8,305 nucleotides of DNA from Elusimicrobiota bacterium (GTDB taxonomy: Bacteria > CG03 > SLGR01 > PWQF01), in NCBI GenBank assembly GCA_003557485.1, contig PWOI01000074.1:1-8305 (forward strand), given 5' to 3'. A model generated the notes under the pieces. The model was not told the origin of the DNA and made no database searches. It worked only from the letters and a program-made list of their open reading frames with translations. The translations under genes and the position numbers were made by a program. How positions within the stretch are numbered: position 1 is the first letter of the stretch; each line of letters starts with the position of its first letter. Positions 2 through 8,305 of this stretch are shown here, piece by piece.

Positions 2-1465
2 AATTCTTTTTACGGCAAAATCAATGACAAGCTGTATTCCCAGAGCATTCCTAACATAGGTCTGGCATATCTGGCCGCAGTTGTTGAGCGGGATCATAAC
101 GTATGTTTGATAGACACCACTTTTCATATTAATGAATACAGAAAATACATAGCGGAAAAAATCAAAAATTTCAAGCCGGATGTGGTTGGGTTTTCAGCTA
201 TGACGTTCAATTTTAAGAGTAGCCTGGAAATTGCCGGATTTATAAGAAAACACTTTGTGGCTCCTGAAATTCCTTTTATATGGGGTGGGGTGCACTCTAC
301 GATTGTTCCCGAGAGCGCTCTCGCAGGACCCCTTGTTGATGCGGTATGCATCGGGGAGGGGGAGGTTAGTTTTCCGGCTTACCTTGAAGCGATTGGAGCC
401 GGGCGGGAACCTTACGGGATAGAAGGGATTTGGTTTAAAAATAAGGAAAATAAAATTATTAAAAATAGTCTCCGACCGTTTATAAGTGACCTTGACACTC
501 TTCCTTTTCCGGCCTGGGATTATTTTGAGTTAGACAGGTATCTGAAGTTTAGTACCATTGATCCCATGTTTCTTACTTCGCGGGGTTGCCCCTTTAAGTG
601 TGCTTTCTGTGCCAGTCCGGGTATACATGAAAAAATTCCAGGAAAATATTACAGGGTAAGGAGCCCGGTAAAGGTAATTGAAGAAGTGTTGGATTTTAAA
701 AAAAAATACTCTGTTGAAAAGTTCAGGCATATTTATTTTTCTGATGAAACTTTCGGTCTCAACTTCAACCAATTCAAGGGGATATGCGAGGGATTTAAAC
801 AGGAAGATGCCCTGCGCGATGTTATATGGAGTTGCGAAACACGCGCCAATGTGATAACTCAAGAATGGGCAAAGGCGGCAGCCGGATCCGGATGTGCTTT
901 AATACACTTGGGGATTGAATCCGCTGATGAGAAAATACGAAACTGTATTTACGGAAAAGATATATCCGACCATGATATAGGGAAAGCGGTTAGGGCTCTT
1001 GATAAGTGCGGGATAAAGTATATATTTCTTATGCTTGTTGGTTCGCACCTCGAGTCCCGTTGCAGTATGAAAAAGAATATTGAACTGATTAAAAGGCTGA
1101 AACCCCTGTCTTTTCGCTTGTACGAGTACTGCCCCGCTCCCGGAACGGAACTTTACAGATTAAACCGAAAAAACCTGCCGAAGGGAAAATGTAACGAAAA
1201 CGCTGTTCCCGAACCTGTTCCTGTGCTTCCGATGAGAGTCTACAGGCTGAGATTTAAAATTCTTAAGCTCCGGTTTTACCTGGTAAATGGATACCGGCGG
1301 CGGGGGATATTTTTTCTTGCGGATTCAGCTACGGCTTTTATGCGAAGCCTTCGGTTTACTATCAGGTCAGCCCGGTTTTCAGAAGGAATCTTATATGCGG
1401 GAATATACTCGCTGACCAGGTTTCTTATTGAAATGGTTACGGATGTTTTTCTTGCAAGGGAGTGA
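2..1465 (+). CDS. B12-binding radical SAM protein, 5' end outside the window
   Basis: This is a cobalamin-dependent radical SAM enzyme of the BchE-like (class B) type. Such enzymes cleave SAM at a [4Fe-4S] cluster and often methylate or rearrange unactivated carbons. Numbering from the first complete codon at base 2, it has a Rossmann-like B12 domain (about 1-165) with GGVHS at 95-99 and IGEGE at 117-121. A radical SAM barrel follows, with cluster cysteines C196, C200 and C203 (CxxxCxxC). Later landmarks are a DETF strand, GIES and a PGTELY segment. The C-terminal ~80 residues are basic and hydrophobic. A TTG at 107 could pass for a start, but the frame is open to the edge and the upstream codons align without gaps with the next gene, so only about 8 residues are missing. 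The usual PGET-type loop after the GIES strand reads GSHLES. The substrate is unknown. Confidence 0.93.
   Translation, partial: NSFYGKINDKLYSQSIPNIGLAYLAAVVERDHNVCLIDTTFHINEYRKYIAEKIKNFKPDVVGFSAMTFNFKSSLEIAGFIRKHFVAPEIPFIWGGVHSTIVPESALAGPLVDAVCIGEGEVSFPAYLEAIGAGREPYGIEGIWFKNKENKIIKNSLRPFISDLDTLPFPAWDYFELDRYLKFSTIDPMFLTSRGCPFKCAFCASPGIHEKIPGKYYRVRSPVKVIEEVLDFKKKYSVEKFRHIYFSDETFGLNFNQFKGICEGFKQEDALRDVIWSCETRANVITQEWAKAAAGSGCALIHLGIESADEKIRNCIYGKDISDHDIGKAVRALDKCGIKYIFLMLVGSHLESRCSMKKNIELIKRLKPLSFRLYEYCPAPGTELYRLNRKNLPKGKCNENAVPEPVPVLPMRVYRLRFKILKLRFYLVNGYRRRGIFFLADSATAFMRSLRFTIRSARFSEGILYAGIYSLTRFLIEMVTDVFLARE
1456..1462 (+). promoter_or_regulatory. Shine-Dalgarno site of the truncated paralogue
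   Basis: AAGGGAG lies 10 bases before the ATG at 1473 and overlaps the last codons of the preceding gene, whose TGA is at 1463-1465. The site and the 7-base gap between the genes support co-transcription and active translation of the second copy. Confidence 0.6.
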
Positions 1466-1472
1466 TTATTAG

Positions 1473-2018
1473 ATGGATGTTCTTATTGTAAATCCTAACT
1501 CATTTTTTTCGTCAACAGTTGATCTGTTAAACGCACAAATAACGCCTAATCTCGGAATTGCTTACCTGATATCCTCAATTGAACATGAACACAGGGTCCG
1601 TTTGGTAGATACAACCTTTCACTCTGAAAATTTCCGCCAATATATATCCGGTAAAATTAAAGGTTTCAATCCGGATGTGGTAGGTATTTCAACTCTTTCA
1701 TTTAACTTTCAGGCCAGCCTGAAAATAGCATGCCTGCTGAAAGAAATATTGCCTGATCCTGATATCCCTTTTATATGGGGCGGTGTGCACTCCACGGTTG
1801 TTCCGGAAGCAGTTCTTTCAGAACCCTTGGTTGACGCCGTATGTATAGGGGAGGGTGAGAGGAGTTTCCCGGCGTATCTTGAACGGCTGAAATACAAAGA
1901 AGAGCCTTATGGAGTGGAAGGAATATGGTTCAAAAATAAGGAAGGCAAGATAATAAAAAACAGTCTTAGGCCTTTCATACAGGATCTTGACAGTCTATTG
2001 CCAAGGCCGGGTTATTAA
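1473..2018 (+). CDS. Truncated B12-binding radical SAM paralogue (cobalamin-binding half only)
   Basis: This 181-residue product is a tandem paralogue of the gene before it. A hand alignment without gaps gives about 62% identity from N9 to L175. It has the start expected for the family (MDVLIVNPN), a GGVHS segment, IGEGE and the block leading to DLDSL. It ends as LLPRPGY where its neighbour continues into LPFPAWDYF and the radical SAM barrel. The CxxxCxxC cluster motif and the whole catalytic domain are therefore absent, and the next gene starts 55 bases later. Downstream of the double stop TAA-TAA, the same frame reads YF, a possible remnant of the neighbour's DYF. It may be a decaying pseudogene, a stand-alone B12-binding subunit, or an assembly or sequencing error. 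Its good ribosome binding site and mostly synonymous divergence argue against long-standing decay. Confidence 0.85.
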   Translation: MDVLIVNPNSFFSSTVDLLNAQITPNLGIAYLISSIEHEHRVRLVDTTFHSENFRQYISGKIKGFNPDVVGISTLSFNFQASLKIACLLKEILPDPDIPFIWGGVHSTVVPEAVLSEPLVDAVCIGEGERSFPAYLERLKYKEEPYGVEGIWFKNKEGKIIKNSLRPFIQDLDSLLPRPGY

Positions 2019-2073
2019 TAATATTTTGGAGTGATATGGTAAGAGAACTTATCCAGGAAAGCGGATCAAGGCG

Positions 2074-3549
2074 ATGAAAATCCTTCTTATAAATCCCTCA
2101 ATAAGTAAATCTAATAAAAACGGACTTGATGACGGTCTCTCTCCGGTCTTTACGGACTTTCAGCTCAGACCTTACTGCCTTCCGTTCGGGATAATGTATA
2201 TTGCCGCAGTTCTGATAGAAAATAATTTCAGTGATCTTATGGTGCTTGATGCCAACGCTGAGTCCCTGAGCCTCAGTGAAGCAGCAGCCAGGGCGGAAAG
2301 CTTCAGGCCTGATATAATAGGCATAACCTGCATGACTTTTACTTATGTATATACGCTTAAACTTGCTGAATTGTTAAAGGCAAAAACTATGGCGCCTATT
2401 GTAGTGGGCGGCCCCCATGTCAGCTTATACCCCCGGGAAGTTATCTCTCATGAATGTTTTGACCTGGGGGTAATAGGAGAAGGAGAATATGTTTTTTTAA
2501 GAGTGGTTGAGATTTTAAATAATAAAAAAACGCTTTCGGCGGATGCCGTAAAACAGGAACTGGAGACTGTTCAGGGGCTGGTATACCGCTGTGGGGAAGA
2601 ACTGATAAAAAAATCTCCCGAAGTTCTGGATGATATAGATGCGCTTCCGTTTCCGGAAAGGGCCCGGGCTGAGAAAAATTTCAATAATCCTGATAAGATA
2701 TGTGATCCGCATATAGATATTTTGTCTATGAGAGGATGCGTATATAATTGTATTTTCTGCTCCCATACGAGATGGTATAACAGGGTGCGTAGGCATTCCC
2801 CTGGGTATGTATTCAAAGAAATGATTCATTGCATAGAGAGGTACGGGATCAGAAAATTTAATTTCTATGATGATGTTTTTACGGTAGAGAAGGAAAGGAC
2901 TCTTGAATTGTGTCGTTTGATTTCAGGATGCGGTTACAATATCAGTTTTTCTATCATGACCAGGCCAGATCTATTTGATGATGAATTAGCCCGCAGTTTG
3001 AAACAGGCGGGTTGTTGCAGTATTAATTTTGGGGTGGAGACCGGAGATCAGGATATACTTGACGGAATAAGAAAAGGTCTTGACATAGAAAAGGTAAAGG
3101 AAAAATTTATTATCTGCCGGAATAATGGAATAAATTTTACGGTCAATTTCATGATCGGCTTTCCGGAAGAAACCCCTGAGAGCATAGAAAGTACGCGCAG
3201 GCTTATTAAAGATTTAAATCTTGATTCCTACAAGGTAAATATTCTTATTCCGTATCCGGGGTCTCTGTTGTACAGAAAGCTGCTGAAAGAACAAAAAATA
3301 GATGACTTCTGGAAAGAGATGACCTTAAAAGGGGAAACACCTCGTGTGCCGGATATATGCAGCAGATTTTCAAGAGCTGATCTTGAAAAGATAAGGAGCA
3401 GAATCGAGCTTATTCCGTATCTGAGATTAAAGACATATTTATTAAACTGCAGGAAAATTTTTATTCCCGGCTTTATCAGATATCATATTAAACTGTTCTC
3501 GAAACTAATTCTGAAGTATGCCGGAATACTTCCAGACAACAGGAATTAA
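2074..3549 (+). CDS. B12-binding radical SAM protein
   Basis: A complete 491-residue class B radical SAM enzyme that presumably catalyses a cobalamin- and SAM-dependent methylation or carbon-skeleton reaction. The start MKILLINPS is canonical for the family. The B12 domain (about 1-170) has GGPH at 112-115 and GEGE at 135-138. The barrel carries cluster cysteines C222, C226 and C229, then DD at 266-267, GVE at 320-322, FPEET at 363-367 and a YPGSLLY segment. At the usual DxHxxG position the sequence is D59-A-N61, so the histidine ligand is missing. The last ~80 residues are rich in Lys/Arg and aliphatic residues, suggesting peripheral membrane contact. Only a weak AAGG lies directly before the ATG. 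It is clearly diverged from the upstream tandem pair, and its length is close to the later gene at 6355. The substrate is unknown. Confidence 0.95.
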   Translation: MKILLINPSISKSNKNGLDDGLSPVFTDFQLRPYCLPFGIMYIAAVLIENNFSDLMVLDANAESLSLSEAAARAESFRPDIIGITCMTFTYVYTLKLAELLKAKTMAPIVVGGPHVSLYPREVISHECFDLGVIGEGEYVFLRVVEILNNKKTLSADAVKQELETVQGLVYRCGEELIKKSPEVLDDIDALPFPERARAEKNFNNPDKICDPHIDILSMRGCVYNCIFCSHTRWYNRVRRHSPGYVFKEMIHCIERYGIRKFNFYDDVFTVEKERTLELCRLISGCGYNISFSIMTRPDLFDDELARSLKQAGCCSINFGVETGDQDILDGIRKGLDIEKVKEKFIICRNNGINFTVNFMIGFPEETPESIESTRRLIKDLNLDSYKVNILIPYPGSLLYRKLLKEQKIDDFWKEMTLKGETPRVPDICSRFSRADLEKIRSRIELIPYLRLKTYLLNCRKIFIPGFIRYHIKLFSKLILKYAGILPDNRN

Positions 3550-3595
3550 GAAGAGATCAGTTGCACTGTTATATTGAAATACCTGAATCGGTAAA

Positions 3596-3624
3596 TTGAC
3601 AGCAATAGGAAAACACATTATAAT
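3596..3624 (+). promoter_or_regulatory. Consensus sigma70 promoter
   Basis: TTGACA at 3596-3601 and TATAAT at 3619-3624 are separated by exactly 17 bases. Both hexamers and the spacer match the housekeeping consensus. Transcription would begin near 3631, leaving a leader of about 105 bases before the ATG at 3736. The position, in the 186-bp gap between two genes on the same strand, suggests that the PaaK-like gene and those after it form their own transcription unit. No clear intrinsic terminator lies between the preceding stop codon and this promoter. Confidence 0.8.
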
Positions 3625-3727
3625 TAAGTTCCATAATCGTCTGAAAATTATACTCTTTTAACAGTTTTTAAAGATTGCGGTAACTTAGAATAAAAATTTG
3701 TAATTACGGATGCAGAGACTGGATAGG

Positions 3728-3733
3728 TAGGAG
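3728..3733 (+). promoter_or_regulatory. Shine-Dalgarno-like site before the PaaK-like gene
   Basis: TAGGAG ends only two bases before the ATG at 3736, closer than the usual 5-9 base spacing. The protein from this ATG already contains the complete N-terminal helix region expected of the family, so the start is retained despite the tight spacing. Confidence 0.45.
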
Positions 3734-3735
3734 AT

Positions 3736-5046
3736 ATGATACACAGAAAAGCAAGCTATTTGTACAGAACAGACAGGTATCAGTGGCTTTCAGAAAAAAA
3801 AGCCCGGGCAAAGCAGCTTGAAAAATTAAAAAAAATAATCGAATATGCGTACTCCCACAGTCGATTTTACAGAGATACATTCGACCGTGCAGGGGTGAAA
3901 CCATCCGATCTAAAAAATTTTGATGATATCAGAAAATTTCCTTTAACCTCTAAAGAAACAATCCGTGAAAATCTTGATAGTGTTCTTACTGTAAAAAGGA
4001 ACAGCAGGCGCCTTAAGTTCATAAAAACTTCCGGTTCCTGCGGAGATGCGATGGAGATTGTTTACAGCAACAGAAGCTGGGATTATACCTCTGCGGTATA
4101 TGCAAGAAATCTCTTTGCGATGGGATATAAGCCTTGGCAGAAAATAGCATTTTACTGGGAGCCTGACCCTGTGTTTATAAAACATGCTACGGCTTTTTAC
4201 CATAAAATCGGGATAATGAAGAAATGTTGGATATATAGTACCGATCCGCCTGAAAAGCAGCTAAACCTTATCGCAAGTCTTAACCCGCCTGTAATCATCG
4301 GTTTTCCCTCATCATTAAAACTTTTGTGCCGGCTTATCCGGGAAAACAGTTATAAAAGCGCTATAACTCCGAATATGATAGTTTCTTCCTTTGAAGTTTT
4401 GAGTGAAGAGACCCGGACTTTTATAGAAGAGACTTTCAATGCTCCGGTTTACAACTGGTACACATCAACGGAATTTATGGGTATGGCCGGAGAATGCCAA
4501 AAGAGAAGCGGGCTGCATATTAACACCGATAGTATTTTCGTTGAGATATTAAAAAACGGCGCAAATCTGAGAGAAGGAGGTTCGGGTGAACTGGTTGTTA
4601 CGGGTCTGGAGATGGAGGCGATGCCTCTTATCAGGTACCAACTGAAAGATTACGGGGTATTGAGCAGTGAGCGATGCTCCTGCGGAAGAAACCTTCCTTT
4701 GCTGACATCTCTGGAGGGGCGAAATGATGATTTTATACTTTTGAAGAACGGGGAGTTCATAGGACCTCGCAGTATTGTAGGCTTGATGGATAAAGCTGTT
4801 CTTTATAACGGGCAGGTAAAGAATTTCAGGGTTATCCAGAAGGCAGAGAGCAAAGTTGTTGTTAAAGTGGTCAGGGACAGTAATTTTCACGCAGGAACTT
4901 TAACTGAAATACGCCGTGTTCTATCGGGTCTGTTCAAAAATTTAATGGATATTGAGATAATATCTGTTGAAGTTATAGAGAAAAACCGGAGGGGGAAGTT
5001 GCGTTTTGTGATATCAGAACTTGATAAAAACCTGTGGCGCATATAA
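3736..5046 (+). CDS. PaaK/CapK-family adenylate-forming enzyme (phenylacetate-CoA ligase-like)
   Basis: This 436-residue protein has the normal length for the family, which adenylates a carboxylate with ATP and usually passes the acyl group to CoA. The phosphate-binding loop is TSGSCG at 98-103 (usually TSGSTG or TSGTTG). Next come YTSTE at 242-246, an ELVVTGL strand, and YQLKDYG at 301-307, where D305 would be the ribose-binding aspartate of the usual Y-R-x-G-D motif. CSCGR follows at 314-318, and NRRGK near the end places the probable C-domain lysine at K421. C254, H261, C314 and C316 lie where some PaaK-like enzymes bind a structural zinc ion, so a zinc site is plausible. It is the first gene after the consensus promoter. 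In polysaccharide clusters such proteins are often labelled CapK. The acid it activates is unknown; aryl, fatty and other organic acids are all possible. Confidence 0.9.
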   Translation: MIHRKASYLYRTDRYQWLSEKKARAKQLEKLKKIIEYAYSHSRFYRDTFDRAGVKPSDLKNFDDIRKFPLTSKETIRENLDSVLTVKRNSRRLKFIKTSGSCGDAMEIVYSNRSWDYTSAVYARNLFAMGYKPWQKIAFYWEPDPVFIKHATAFYHKIGIMKKCWIYSTDPPEKQLNLIASLNPPVIIGFPSSLKLLCRLIRENSYKSAITPNMIVSSFEVLSEETRTFIEETFNAPVYNWYTSTEFMGMAGECQKRSGLHINTDSIFVEILKNGANLREGGSGELVVTGLEMEAMPLIRYQLKDYGVLSSERCSCGRNLPLLTSLEGRNDDFILLKNGEFIGPRSIVGLMDKAVLYNGQVKNFRVIQKAESKVVVKVVRDSNFHAGTLTEIRRVLSGLFKNLMDIEIISVEVIEKNRRGKLRFVISELDKNLWRI

Positions 5047-5146
5047 CCGGAGAAGTTTGAAAAGAGATTTTTAGATACACTTTTTACCCTTCCGGATTTA
5101 TAAATTATGTTTCCGAATTCATTTTACTATTTAAAGAGAAAGACTA

Positions 5147-5221
5147 ATGGCTTCTGTTGTCACTATAGGTAAACCCTTAAAACTGAACCTGAGGTGGTTT
5201 TTCGGATTTCTCCTATTATGA
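5147..5221 (+). CDS. Possible 24-codon leader ORF coupled to the SGNH gene
   Basis: An ATG at 5147 opens a 24-residue frame (starts MASVVTIGKPLKL, ends RWFFGFLLL). Its TGA at 5219-5221 overlaps the ATG at 5218 in an ATGA arrangement. A purine-rich AAAGAGAAAG lies just upstream as a weak ribosome binding site. The following gene has no convincing site of its own, so this ORF could couple its translation. The peptide is basic and then hydrophobic. It could equally be the true N-terminus of the next protein separated by a frameshift, or chance. Confidence 0.25.
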   Translation: MASVVTIGKPLKLNLRWFFGFLLL

Positions 5222-6189
5222 AGATATTACTTGTTTTCGTTTCCATGTTGGGAGCAGTTTGTATAGGAGAAATTTTGGTTCGGGTTTTGCCTTTGGAGAC
5301 GAGTTTCAGTAAATATGACCTTAAATGGGAGCATTGGAGGCTCTGTAAGGCCGGCGGTGCGGATTTTTATACCGACAAGCTCAGCTATCACCCTGATATA
5401 GGGTATGAGAAGCCTGAGGCTTATAAGGAAATACAAAGAATTTTGAGTGAAAATAAAGACAGCTTTAAAATTCTTTTTTTAGGGGATTCAGTGACACACT
5501 GGGGCGCATATGTAGAGTATTTTGAAAAACTGGCAAAAGGCGATTATCAGGATGGCAGTATCGAGATGGTAAATGCCGGAACAATGGGGTATGATATGAG
5601 CCTTGTTTACCGCTATCTTAAATTCAGAGGTCTCAAGTTGCAACCAGATTTGGCGGTTATCCAGTTCAATCCCAATGATTTTGTAAGCACTCCGGTTATT
5701 ATAAAAGAAAATGACAGTTGGTTTGCATATGACCGAAGGGAAATTCACAGGTTTTTAAGTCCTTTTCTGTTTTCCCGGTCAAAACTTTACAGGACTATTT
5801 TCTTGCGAGCGATGGCTTATTCCGGATTGCATGATGATTACAAAAACAATGTTAAGGAACCGTTAAAGAACATTAAATCTCTTCTTGGGAAGCATGGGAT
5901 TCCTTTCTATGTATTATATTTTCCGCCTCTTGTTGAAGAAAAACCAGATTGGGCGGAAAAATTCCACAGGTATTTTTATGAGATTGTTTATGAGATTGAT
6001 CTTTGGCCGCACCTTATTGAACTGGTAAAAGAGCATCCGGTATCTTCTCTGGAAGGGATTAGCTATGATATATATCATCTAAATGATAAGGGACATAGAA
6101 TTGCTGCTGAGGTCCTGTTCAGGAGATTAAGCCCGTTTTTGGCTTCAGAGATAAAGAATAAGGATAAGTTTAAAGGTAAAGGGAAATAA
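5218..6189 (+). CDS. Membrane-anchored SGNH/GDSL hydrolase-like protein
   Basis: This 323-residue protein has one N-terminal hydrophobic segment (about residues 3-24), probably an uncleaved signal anchor that places the domain outside the cytoplasmic membrane. The SGNH fold follows. Block I is LGDSVT with nucleophile S91, block II is the glycine in NAGTMGYD, block III is N153 in NPND, and block V is D284-x-x-H287 followed by LNDKGH, so the full catalytic set is present. Family members are esterases, deacetylases or acyltransferases acting on lipids or glycans. Here it may add or remove an acyl group on an envelope product. A GTG at 5194 in frame would add 8 residues; ATG 5218 is preferred because it overlaps an upstream stop and starts MKILLV. 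Neither start has a good Shine-Dalgarno sequence. The preceding 5047-5193 gap shows no strong promoter or terminator. The substrate is unknown. Confidence 0.9.
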   Translation: MKILLVFVSMLGAVCIGEILVRVLPLETSFSKYDLKWEHWRLCKAGGADFYTDKLSYHPDIGYEKPEAYKEIQRILSENKDSFKILFLGDSVTHWGAYVEYFEKLAKGDYQDGSIEMVNAGTMGYDMSLVYRYLKFRGLKLQPDLAVIQFNPNDFVSTPVIIKENDSWFAYDRREIHRFLSPFLFSRSKLYRTIFLRAMAYSGLHDDYKNNVKEPLKNIKSLLGKHGIPFYVLYFPPLVEEKPDWAEKFHRYFYEIVYEIDLWPHLIELVKEHPVSSLEGISYDIYHLNDKGHRIAAEVLFRRLSPFLASEIKNKDKFKGKGK

Positions 6190-6215
6190 TTTGAGCTTAC
6201 AGAAAAGCATTGAAA

Positions 6216-6244
6216 TTCTGAGGTTTTCTTTCCTTCCCTCAGAA
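6216..6244 (+). repeat. 8-bp perfect inverted repeat downstream of the SGNH gene
   Basis: TTCTGAGG at 6216-6223 pairs exactly with CCTCAGAA at 6237-6244 across a pyrimidine-rich 13-base loop, starting 26 bases after the stop codon. No run of T follows, so it is not a standard intrinsic terminator. It may be an mRNA-stabilising hairpin, part of the next gene's leader, or incidental. Confidence 0.4.
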
Positions 6245-6303
6245 CAAACTCGGCAACCTTTGAAGTACGGACTCTTTAAATTTTTCACGGGGTGTTTTTA
6301 GGG

Positions 6304-6320
6304 TAATATTGAAAATATTA
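6304..6320 (+). repeat. Inverted repeat TAATATT-GAA-AATATTA
   Basis: Two perfect 7-base arms (6304-6310 and 6314-6320) flank a 3-base centre, 34 bases before the start codon at 6355. The compact, AT-only symmetry resembles a dimeric regulator's operator, but AT-rich sequence yields such dyads by chance fairly often. Confidence 0.3.
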
Positions 6321-6325
6321 ATAAC

Positions 6326-6349
6326 AGTGTAAGCAAAGACTTACTCACT
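6326..6349 (+). promoter_or_regulatory. Possible hairpin beside the start of the third complete B12-radical SAM gene
   Basis: AGTGTAAG (6326-6333) can pair with CTTA (6340-6343) and CACT (6346-6349), leaving a 2-base bulge and a 6-base loop. The structure ends 5 bases before the ATG at 6355 and takes the place where a Shine-Dalgarno sequence would lie; none is visible. It could influence initiation, but the stem is modest and needs conservation to be believed. Confidence 0.3.
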
Positions 6350-6354
6350 TCTGA

Positions 6355-7836
6355 ATGACTGAAGTAGTTTTAATCAATCCTCCGGATTTTATTAAGGGAG
6401 AGGGTAAATTTTTTTCAAAATTTCTTTCAAGAGAGAAGATCCTTCCGCCCCTGGGACTGGCTTACATTGCTTCTGTCCTAAAACAAAACGGGATAAGTGT
6501 AAAAATAATAGACATAAATGCGCTTGGAGTTCCCGGCAAAAGATTGAAAGAGATTTTAGTAATGATGAACCCTTCTATAGTGGGGATTACCTGCAATACT
6601 TTTACCTTTCGTGCCGCCATGGATACAGCAAGAATAGTTAAAGATTCTCTCCCGGGGGTTTTTCTTGTTATGGGGGGGCCTCATATTACCGTTTTAGGAG
6701 AGGAAACACTGAGATATCATAAGGAAATAGATTGCGGGATCGTATCCGAAGGAGAGGCGCCCATGCTGGAGGTTGCCAGGGAATATCTTTCCGGAGGAAA
6801 CTGGTGTGCGACCGATAATATTATATACCGGAAAAACGGTTGCGTAATTACAAATAGAAGAAATGACAGGCCTGCTGAAGTCAACTCCATTCCCATGCCA
6901 GCCCGGGAACTTCTTCCTGAGAACTCTTATCGCGAGTTCTTTTCACATGGAAAAACTACCAGCCTGGTTACTTCCAGAGGATGCGCTTTCGCATGCGCGT
7001 TCTGCGCAAAATGGCTGAAAAGCGGATTACGGCTGAGGTCCCCTGAGAACATAATTCTGGAATTGGAAAAGCTGGTAAACGGGTGCGGGTATAGGAATAT
7101 TATTTTTTATGATGACACTTTTACTGTATCGGAGGATAGGATAAGAAAATTATGCAGATTGATTATAGGCAGGAGACTGAAATTCAGATGGAGCTGTTTT
7201 ACCCGGGCAGACCGTATAAATCCGGACCTGCTACTGGATATGAGAAAAGCAGGCTGCCGAAGGGTATCACTGGGTATTGAATCCGCTTCCCAAAGAGTGC
7301 TGGATAATCTGAAAAAGGGGATAAGTATGGAGGATGCGGCAAGAGCAGTCAGGCTTATAAGGGAAGCTGGAATCCAGTCTGTTGCTTACTTTATGTATGG
7401 GTCACCCGGAGACACTCCCGGAACAATGAAACAGACCTTCAGATTTTCCCGGGAACTTCAGCCGGATTATGCTTATTATTCAATTACCATACTGCATCCC
7501 GGGACAGAGTTATACGACTATGCCGAAGAGAGAGGGTATATATCCAGAGATTACTGGAGGCAGTATGTAGAGCGGAACGGAAGTTTCCCCGGCCGGCCTC
7601 CTTATCTTATTGAACGGGGTGTGACTCCGGAATTTCTTGAGAGATTTCAAAGAAATTCTTACTTGTTTTTTTATATGCGACCGGGTTATATTTTAAAAAA
7701 GATTTTACATAATAAAGGGAAAGAAAGCATTAAAGTTTTTTTTAAGGTATCCAGGATTGCTTTTGCTCTGGCAGGAAACTTTATATACTTAAAGATACTC
7801 AGGATACTTAAAAAAGGTAGCCTGAAAGGAGCATAA
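6355..7836 (+). CDS. B12-binding radical SAM protein
   Basis: A complete 493-residue cobalamin-dependent radical SAM enzyme. The start MTEVVLINPPD is canonical, and an in-frame TGA lies directly before the ATG, so no earlier start is possible. The B12 domain has D53-I-N55-A-L-G58 in the DxHxxG position (Asn for the ligand His), GGPH at 107-110 and SEGE at 131-134. The barrel has C210, C214 and C217 (CxxxCxxC), DD at 253-254, GIE at 307-309, SPGDT at 350-354 and HPGTELY at 381-387. The C-terminal ~70 residues, after a YLIERG segment, are strongly basic and hydrophobic. No Shine-Dalgarno site is visible; the 165-base leader instead holds three inverted repeats. It follows the SGNH gene on the same strand and is probably in the same transcription unit. 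The chemistry is likely methylation, cyclisation or C-C bond formation on an unknown, possibly lipid, substrate. Confidence 0.95.
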   Translation: MTEVVLINPPDFIKGEGKFFSKFLSREKILPPLGLAYIASVLKQNGISVKIIDINALGVPGKRLKEILVMMNPSIVGITCNTFTFRAAMDTARIVKDSLPGVFLVMGGPHITVLGEETLRYHKEIDCGIVSEGEAPMLEVAREYLSGGNWCATDNIIYRKNGCVITNRRNDRPAEVNSIPMPARELLPENSYREFFSHGKTTSLVTSRGCAFACAFCAKWLKSGLRLRSPENIILELEKLVNGCGYRNIIFYDDTFTVSEDRIRKLCRLIIGRRLKFRWSCFTRADRINPDLLLDMRKAGCRRVSLGIESASQRVLDNLKKGISMEDAARAVRLIREAGIQSVAYFMYGSPGDTPGTMKQTFRFSRELQPDYAYYSITILHPGTELYDYAEERGYISRDYWRQYVERNGSFPGRPPYLIERGVTPEFLERFQRNSYLFFYMRPGYILKKILHNKGKESIKVFFKVSRIAFALAGNFIYLKILRILKKGSLKGA

Positions 7837-7888: not shown

Positions 7889-8305
7889 ATGAGATATATA
7901 AAGGCCATTTTATTTATATCAGTACTGTTTTATCTTGTCGGGATCTTGGATATTAATTTTCACGGCGCCGATGAGCCCATTTATTTCGCCTATACTGCCA
8001 GCTTAATTGATGACGGAGATTTAAATATTGTTAACTACTACCCTGCGCATACATTAATTGTAAGCCCTACATATAACTTTCCGGCAGCTACCAGCCACGG
8101 GGGGGTGGTTCTGTGGGCCCCGTTTTATACGTACGCCCGCACACTGTACTCTGCGGCAGTAAGACTTGGTATCCCCGGTATTGCCTCTGCCGGGCTTGAG
8201 AAGTTAAGCAAATGTGTGCTCTCATTCAGCAACCTTATTGCGGGAATCCTTTTTATTGTCTTTACTTTCTTTCTTGAATCGGGGTGCTTTATAAAAAAAC
8301 ATGTG
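7889..8305 (+). CDS. N-terminal part of a polytopic membrane protein, probable PMT/ArnT-like glycosyltransferase
   Basis: An ATG at 7889, with TAA directly before it in frame, opens 139 codons without a stop to the window edge. The product starts MRYIKAILF and has a transmembrane helix at about residues 4-20. A loop with HGADEP follows (D28-E29), then a DDGDLN stretch, SHGGVVLWAPFY at 69-80 and a second long hydrophobic helix at about 110-128. Acidic residues in the first outer loop and the later H-x-G...APF segment are typical of GT-C enzymes such as the PMT_2 and ArnT-like families. These transfer sugars from polyprenyl-phosphate donors outside the membrane. Only about a quarter of a typical protein is present, so the family call is tentative. 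The 52-base gap after the preceding gene and the shared strand suggest co-transcription; there is no visible Shine-Dalgarno site. Confidence 0.7.
   Translation, partial: MRYIKAILFISVLFYLVGILDINFHGADEPIYFAYTASLIDDGDLNIVNYYPAHTLIVSPTYNFPAATSHGGVVLWAPFYTYARTLYSAAVRLGIPGIASAGLEKLSKCVLSFSNLIAGILFIVFTFFLESGCFIKKHV

Follow-up and report, generated by a model that had tools for sequence, protein, structure and literature searches.

A contig of an Elusimicrobiota bacterium as a possible part of an envelope-glycan locus that includes accessory B12-radical SAM genes

Results

The window analysed here is the whole of a single contig (C98; PWOI01000074.1) of 8305 bp, from a metagenome-assembled genome of an Elusimicrobiota bacterium (G000; 2.07 Mb in 212 contigs, 86.6% complete). 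It contains seven open reading frames (ORFs), every one on the + strand, and its gene locus is incomplete at both ends, where the contig stops. We interpret it as part of an envelope-glycan locus that varies between lineages and includes accessory B12-radical S-adenosylmethionine (SAM) enzymes, a reading that we hold with about even confidence. A first-pass annotation had listed three B12-radical SAM genes, one B12-only gene, a PaaK-like gene, an SGNH-like gene and the start of a GT-C-like gene, all on one strand, and this inventory proved real:

2-1465, + strand: B12-binding and radical SAM enzyme 1, 5' end missing (PF02310 1.6e-19, PF04055 6e-15; CPFKCAFC)
1473-2018, + strand: B12-binding domain only, 181 amino acids (PF02310, no PF04055)
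2074-3549, + strand: B12-binding and radical SAM enzyme 2 (PF02310 and PF04055 above cut-off; CVYNCIFC)
3736-5046, + strand: PaaK-like adenylate-forming ligase (phenylacetate-CoA ligase PDB 4r1l, 3.9e-36)
5194-6189, + strand: SGNH-type protein with one hydrophobic segment near the N-terminus (GDS97, NPND159, DIYH292)
6355-7836, + strand: B12-binding and radical SAM enzyme 3 (PF04055 9e-28, PF02310 3e-20; CAFACAFC)
7889-8305, + strand: GT-C-like membrane protein, N-terminal part, 3' end missing (paralogues on C59 and C102)

Relatives of the GT-C-like and SGNH proteins lie in glycan loci

The last ORF, a fragment of 139 amino acids that itself has no Pfam match, was recognised as GT-C-like because of its two full-length paralogues in G000, on contigs C59 (52% identity) and C102 (43% identity). 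Both match PMT_2 (PF13231) above cut-off, and the C102 paralogue has 11 predicted membrane segments. The C59 locus carries glycosyltransferase family 2 (GT2)-like, SDR-like and YfhO-like genes; the C102 locus holds GT2, Gfo/Idh-like, nitrilase (PF00795), NodU-like carbamoyltransferase and TPR-SGNH genes, with a B12-radical SAM gene next door. This placement of both paralogues among glycan genes argues for the glycan-locus reading, as does the spacing of radical SAM 3 and the GT-C-like gene, which lie only 52 bp apart on the same strand. The SGNH protein of the C102 glycan locus (L017:6855-8330) is fused to TPR repeats and has a hydrophobic segment at its N-terminus.

The SGNH assignment in the window, a tentative one, is based on the Ser, Asn and His blocks (GDS, ND and DxxH) together with a match to PF13472 below the cut-off (1.7e-5; 25.9 versus 32.9 bits). 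SGNH genes were found in three radical SAM loci of genome G009, two of these with capsule-type genes or an ABC-2 exporter: on contig C1 the SGNH gene has a B12-radical SAM gene as its neighbour, with an ABC-2 exporter nearby, and on C55 an AlgX-like SGNH gene and two adjoining B12-radical SAM genes form part of a capsule-like cluster. The occurrence of these genes in radical SAM loci further supports the glycan-locus reading. The window protein shares its putative catalytic motifs, its N-terminal hydrophobic segment and the presence of relatives in glycan loci with the AlgX/AlgJ-type and GDSL SGNH proteins of polysaccharide loci; unlike those systems, it scores below the Pfam GDSL cut-off and its contig has no MBOAT partner. 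Among viral contigs, no relatives of the protein were found.

GT2 genes accompany relatives of the radical SAM genes

GT2 genes are enriched beside relatives of the window's radical SAM genes, which likewise favours the glycan-locus reading. Glycos_transf_2 (Pfam) was present in 18 of 110 genes within two positions of these relatives, compared with at most 1 of 110 random genes from the same genomes (Fisher 2e-5). In a second, less independent count, 37 of 103 radical SAM genes had a GT2 gene within two genes, versus 4 of 234 random genes. Two or more glycan genes were present in 10 of the 20 loci examined for relatives of genes 2 and 3 and in 7 of the 22 for relatives of gene 1, versus 1 of 20 random same-genome stretches; the glycan seeds for these locus counts were partly drawn from such loci, with self-hits removed. 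Together with the loci of the GT-C paralogues, these glycan neighbourhoods support the envelope-glycan part of the first-pass annotation.

Radical SAM 2 falls in a clade (SH-like approximate likelihood-ratio test 97, in a quick tree) of which five members, from different families, have a GT2 gene directly upstream. The GT2-radical SAM pairs are:

L064:6825-9095
L286:8317-10593
L294:3081-5388
L295:8239-10704
L296:8176-10583

The paired GT2 proteins show 36-44% identity to that of L064 and are most like AglJ, dolichyl-phosphate hexose transferase and ArnC, with scores below cut-off. These enzymes load sugars onto polyprenyl or dolichyl phosphate, and the resulting polyprenyl- and dolichyl-phosphate sugars are the donors for GT-C enzymes. 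That an AglJ/ArnC-like GT2 gene directly precedes radical SAM 2-clade genes in five families argues for the glycan-locus reading. The link to the window is indirect, because the window, being cut, shows no GT2 gene and the branch leading to radical SAM 2 within the GT2-paired clade is long.

From these pairs we infer an order of GT2 action, then radical modification, then GT-C transfer. A more specific proposal, which we regard as doubtful, is that enzymes of the radical SAM 2 and 3 type modify polyprenyl-phosphate-linked sugars between a DPM/AglJ-like GT2 and a GT-C enzyme, so that surface glycans carrying C-methyl groups or other radical modifications would be produced in many uncultured phyla. 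A search of the literature for a polysaccharide or dolichol-phosphate context of B12-radical SAM genes, with subscription journals outside its coverage, found nothing relevant. Most B12-radical SAM genes, which are very numerous in uncultured bacteria, have no known substrate, and the pair would give one large group of them a concrete, testable one; if the proposal is true, the recognised means of decorating surface glycans would come to include radical C-modification. The window is one truncated example, and the pair, which lies outside it, is the more interesting lead.

A putative scheme and the points against it

If the window does belong to an envelope-glycan locus, the GT-C protein would transfer a sugar from a polyprenyl-phosphate donor at the outer face of the cytoplasmic membrane. 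Ahead of this transfer, radical C-modification of the sugar or lipid-linked sugar would fall to the B12-radical SAM enzymes, mainly 2 and 3; methylation is the commonest chemistry of the family. The PaaK-like ligase would activate a carboxylic acid for attachment, and the exported SGNH protein would add or remove an acyl group outside the cell. A separate unit, with a less clear role, may consist of gene 1 and its truncated duplicate. All of these catalytic steps are deduced from family membership and gene neighbourhood.

Several points weigh against this interpretation. The contig, cut at both ends, has no flippase, polymerase, GT2 or nucleotide-sugar gene, and likewise no Wzx/Wzy or ABC exporter. 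The substrate assignment is itself a proposal. In the trees, gene 1 groups with a paralogue of non-glycan context (contig C133), and the ligase groups with ligases without glycan context, apart from the clades of exopolysaccharide (EPS) clusters. A promoter-like site in the middle of the window also hints at two transcription units.

The three radical SAM enzymes and a possible lipid substrate

Genes 1, 2 and 3 each have PF02310 and PF04055 above cut-off and an intact CxxxCxxC motif, as expected of B12-dependent radical SAM enzymes, and are predicted to bind cobalamin. They share domain order and this motif with the class B radical SAM enzymes BchE, HpnJ, HpnR, ladderane rSAM, PhpK and ApyD, whose NCBIfam models give roughly 60-180 bits for the window enzymes. 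Unlike the true members of these families, they score far under the family cut-offs (180 of 481 bits for BchE, 175 of 578 for HpnJ), reaching about 1/10 to 2/5 of the NCBIfam equivalog cut-offs for BchE, HpnJ, HpnR and ladderane rSAM. For enzymes 1 and 3 the nearest solved structure by sequence is AprD4 (PDB 6fd2), a radical SAM dehydratase of aminoglycoside biosynthesis; the window enzymes fall under the NCBIfam AprD4 cut-off. AprD4 acts on an aminoglycoside substrate and uses no B12.

The nearest paralogue of gene 1, with which it clusters in the tree, is on G000 contig C133 (37-40% identity). On that contig (L018; G000:C133:1-6316) the gene 1 paralogue is joined in one run by an IlvE-like aminotransferase, by two radical SAM proteins, one MoaA/TrsS-like and the other Tes/TrsS-like with an HMPTM zinc ribbon, and by an unassigned membrane-like protein. 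The neighbours in this run score well under their family cut-offs; the Tes/TrsS-like protein reaches 157 of 450 bits for Tes and 170 of 490 for TrsS. The below-cut-off likeness to the Tes and TrsS systems is that of a protein beside the nearest paralogue of gene 1, outside the window.

Tes makes archaeal membrane-spanning lipids (PMC8941075). The C133 neighbourhood, with its Tes/TrsS-like protein and IlvE-like aminotransferase, agrees with the pathway suggested by the first-pass annotation, in which a lipid or acyl chain would undergo stepwise radical modification, be activated by the PaaK-like ligase and be attached to an envelope glycan. The likeness of the ligase to FlxY, a putative acyl-CoA ligase of flexirubin synthesis, points the same way, as do two ligases of genome G203, sister to that of the window, which adjoin three other B12-radical SAM genes. 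However, the contig has no acyl carrier protein, ketosynthase, acyltransferase or polyprenyl gene, every lipid-family model scores far under its cut-off, and nothing in the window shows a lipid or acyl substrate; moreover, the G203 radical SAM genes belong to another subfamily and their locus also carries mfnB. We consider such a pathway unlikely. A lipid or mixed reading keeps some probability because the ligase lies outside the EPS clades and gene 1 groups beside a Tes/TrsS-like paralogue locus.

The PaaK-like ligase

The ligase gave its best NCBIfam match to DVU_1553 (170 of 300 bits; NF045666, Trs), followed by FlxY (159 of 520) and PaaK (148 of 646; TIGR02155), and is thus under both the Trs and the PaaK equivalog cut-offs. 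In a tree of 75 sequences it is sister to the two ligases of G203:C48 (100/98), and then joins a group of archaeal and other ligases whose neighbourhoods contain no glycan genes (97/91). CapK genes occur in EPS loci, and insertions in one were recovered by a biofilm screen in Rubrivivax gelatinosus (PMC3684757; also PMC1569441). The window ligase shares the adenylate-forming family with the PaaK/CapK-type ligases of such loci, but CapK-like ligases of EPS clusters form other clades, and a plain CapK of an EPS cluster was accordingly ruled out.

In the G203:C48 locus (L234), an MfnB gene (PF04476; methanofuran synthesis) and a gene for a putative MfnE-like kinase are surrounded by the two PaaK-like ligases and by three B12-radical SAM genes, which show about 25% identity to those of the window. 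A constant linkage of ligase and radical SAM genes was dropped for lack of support, a profile search of 386 genomes around G203 having given no further close member. In two genomes of one genus (L231:6694-9289 and L229:3203-5815), a ligase adjoins a PP-loop-like gene (FSGGTDST) and a small CCGKIDKTMQAGK protein.

The match to DVU_1553 and the TrsS-like protein beside the gene 1 paralogue could also suggest a secondary-metabolite or cofactor cluster, such as a relative of the Trs (TrsS/DVU_1553) system. Both scores are well under cut-off, though, the ligase and the TrsS-like protein are encoded on separate contigs, and no further part of a Trs system turned up; we regard this explanation as very unlikely.

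The gene set does not recur as a unit

Within the phylum, which is small, the comparison set comprised 16 genomes, G000 included. G000 gave no 16S rRNA and was placed through a genome of the same order alone. In addition, 117 neighbourhoods of homologues were compared, a few of them overlapping: 22 loci of gene 1, 20 of genes 2 and 3, and 75 of the ligase (55 named records and 20 further genomes). The full gene set was found in no other genome of the phylum and in none of the 117 neighbourhoods, and no other locus among those neighbourhoods brought ligase, SGNH and B12-radical SAM genes together. Ligase matches were present in 3 of the 16 genomes, source included, and the SGNH protein in 2; this SGNH type occurred in 2 of 290 genomes. 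Only two of the 75 ligase neighbourhoods contained a B12-radical SAM gene (G240:C23 and G203:C48), and G100, a congener of G240, keeps the ligase and its adjoining gene and is missing the radical SAM gene.

The first-pass annotation had envisaged a single dedicated, undescribed pathway, and had named homologues scattered without a shared neighbourhood as evidence to the contrary. Scattered homologues are largely what the comparison of relatives returned, and with ligase, SGNH and B12-radical SAM genes standing apart in the other loci examined, the idea of one dedicated pathway is unsupported. No match to gene 1, the ligase, the SGNH gene or the GT-C gene was present in G012, a genome of the same genus that is 82% complete; this pattern is as expected for a variable surface locus and for that reason counts in favour of the glycan-locus reading.

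Transcription units

A promoter-like site lies in the gap ahead of the ligase, with three genes on its upstream side and four downstream:

3596-3624, + strand: sigma-70-type promoter consensus TTGACA-17-TATAAT (12/12 positions; consensus match only)

The gaps between the middle genes measure 186, 147 and 165 bp. Because of these gaps and the perfect promoter consensus, two transcription units are predicted to be more likely than one. No cobalamin riboswitch was found by Rfam in the window or in four other G000 contigs, and no tRNA was detected in the window.

The promoter and the gaps are also what would be seen if the window held at least two unrelated adjacent units without a common product, one with gene 1, its truncated copy and radical SAM 2, the other with the ligase, the SGNH gene, radical SAM 3 and the GT-C gene. 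The non-recurrence of the full combination would fit this arrangement, as would the positions of genes 1, 2 and 3 in separate parts of the radical SAM tree and the abundance of B12-radical SAM genes across the phylum. Nevertheless, all genes share one strand, the relatives of radical SAM 2 and 3 lie in the same kind of locus, and relatives of the SGNH and GT-C proteins are also found near B12-radical SAM genes; unrelated units therefore seem improbable to us. A near-continuous array on G009 contig C12 (L072:4247-16994) contains seven B12-radical-SAM-like genes with one other radical-SAM-like gene interspersed.

The B12-only ORF as a truncated copy of gene 1

The B12-only ORF is missing the radical SAM domain and is thus not a B12-dependent radical SAM enzyme by the measure applied to genes 1, 2 and 3. 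It is collinear with residues 1-173 of gene 1, with 61-62% amino acid and 64% nucleotide identity, and its DNA similarity to gene 1 drops sharply at about position 1996, directly before the radical SAM domain. We take it to be a tandem duplicate of gene 1, truncated ahead of that domain, because the similarity stops just there. The duplication is old, since synonymous sites are saturated (over 172 codons, nonsynonymous divergence dN 0.31 and synonymous divergence dS about 2.9). The ORF may be either a decaying remnant or a retained B12-binding protein. A short open frame downstream, IFWSDMVRELIQESGSRR, was considered as a leftover of the deleted C-terminus and dropped as too short. From the stop of the B12-only ORF to the start of radical SAM 2 the distance is 55 bp.

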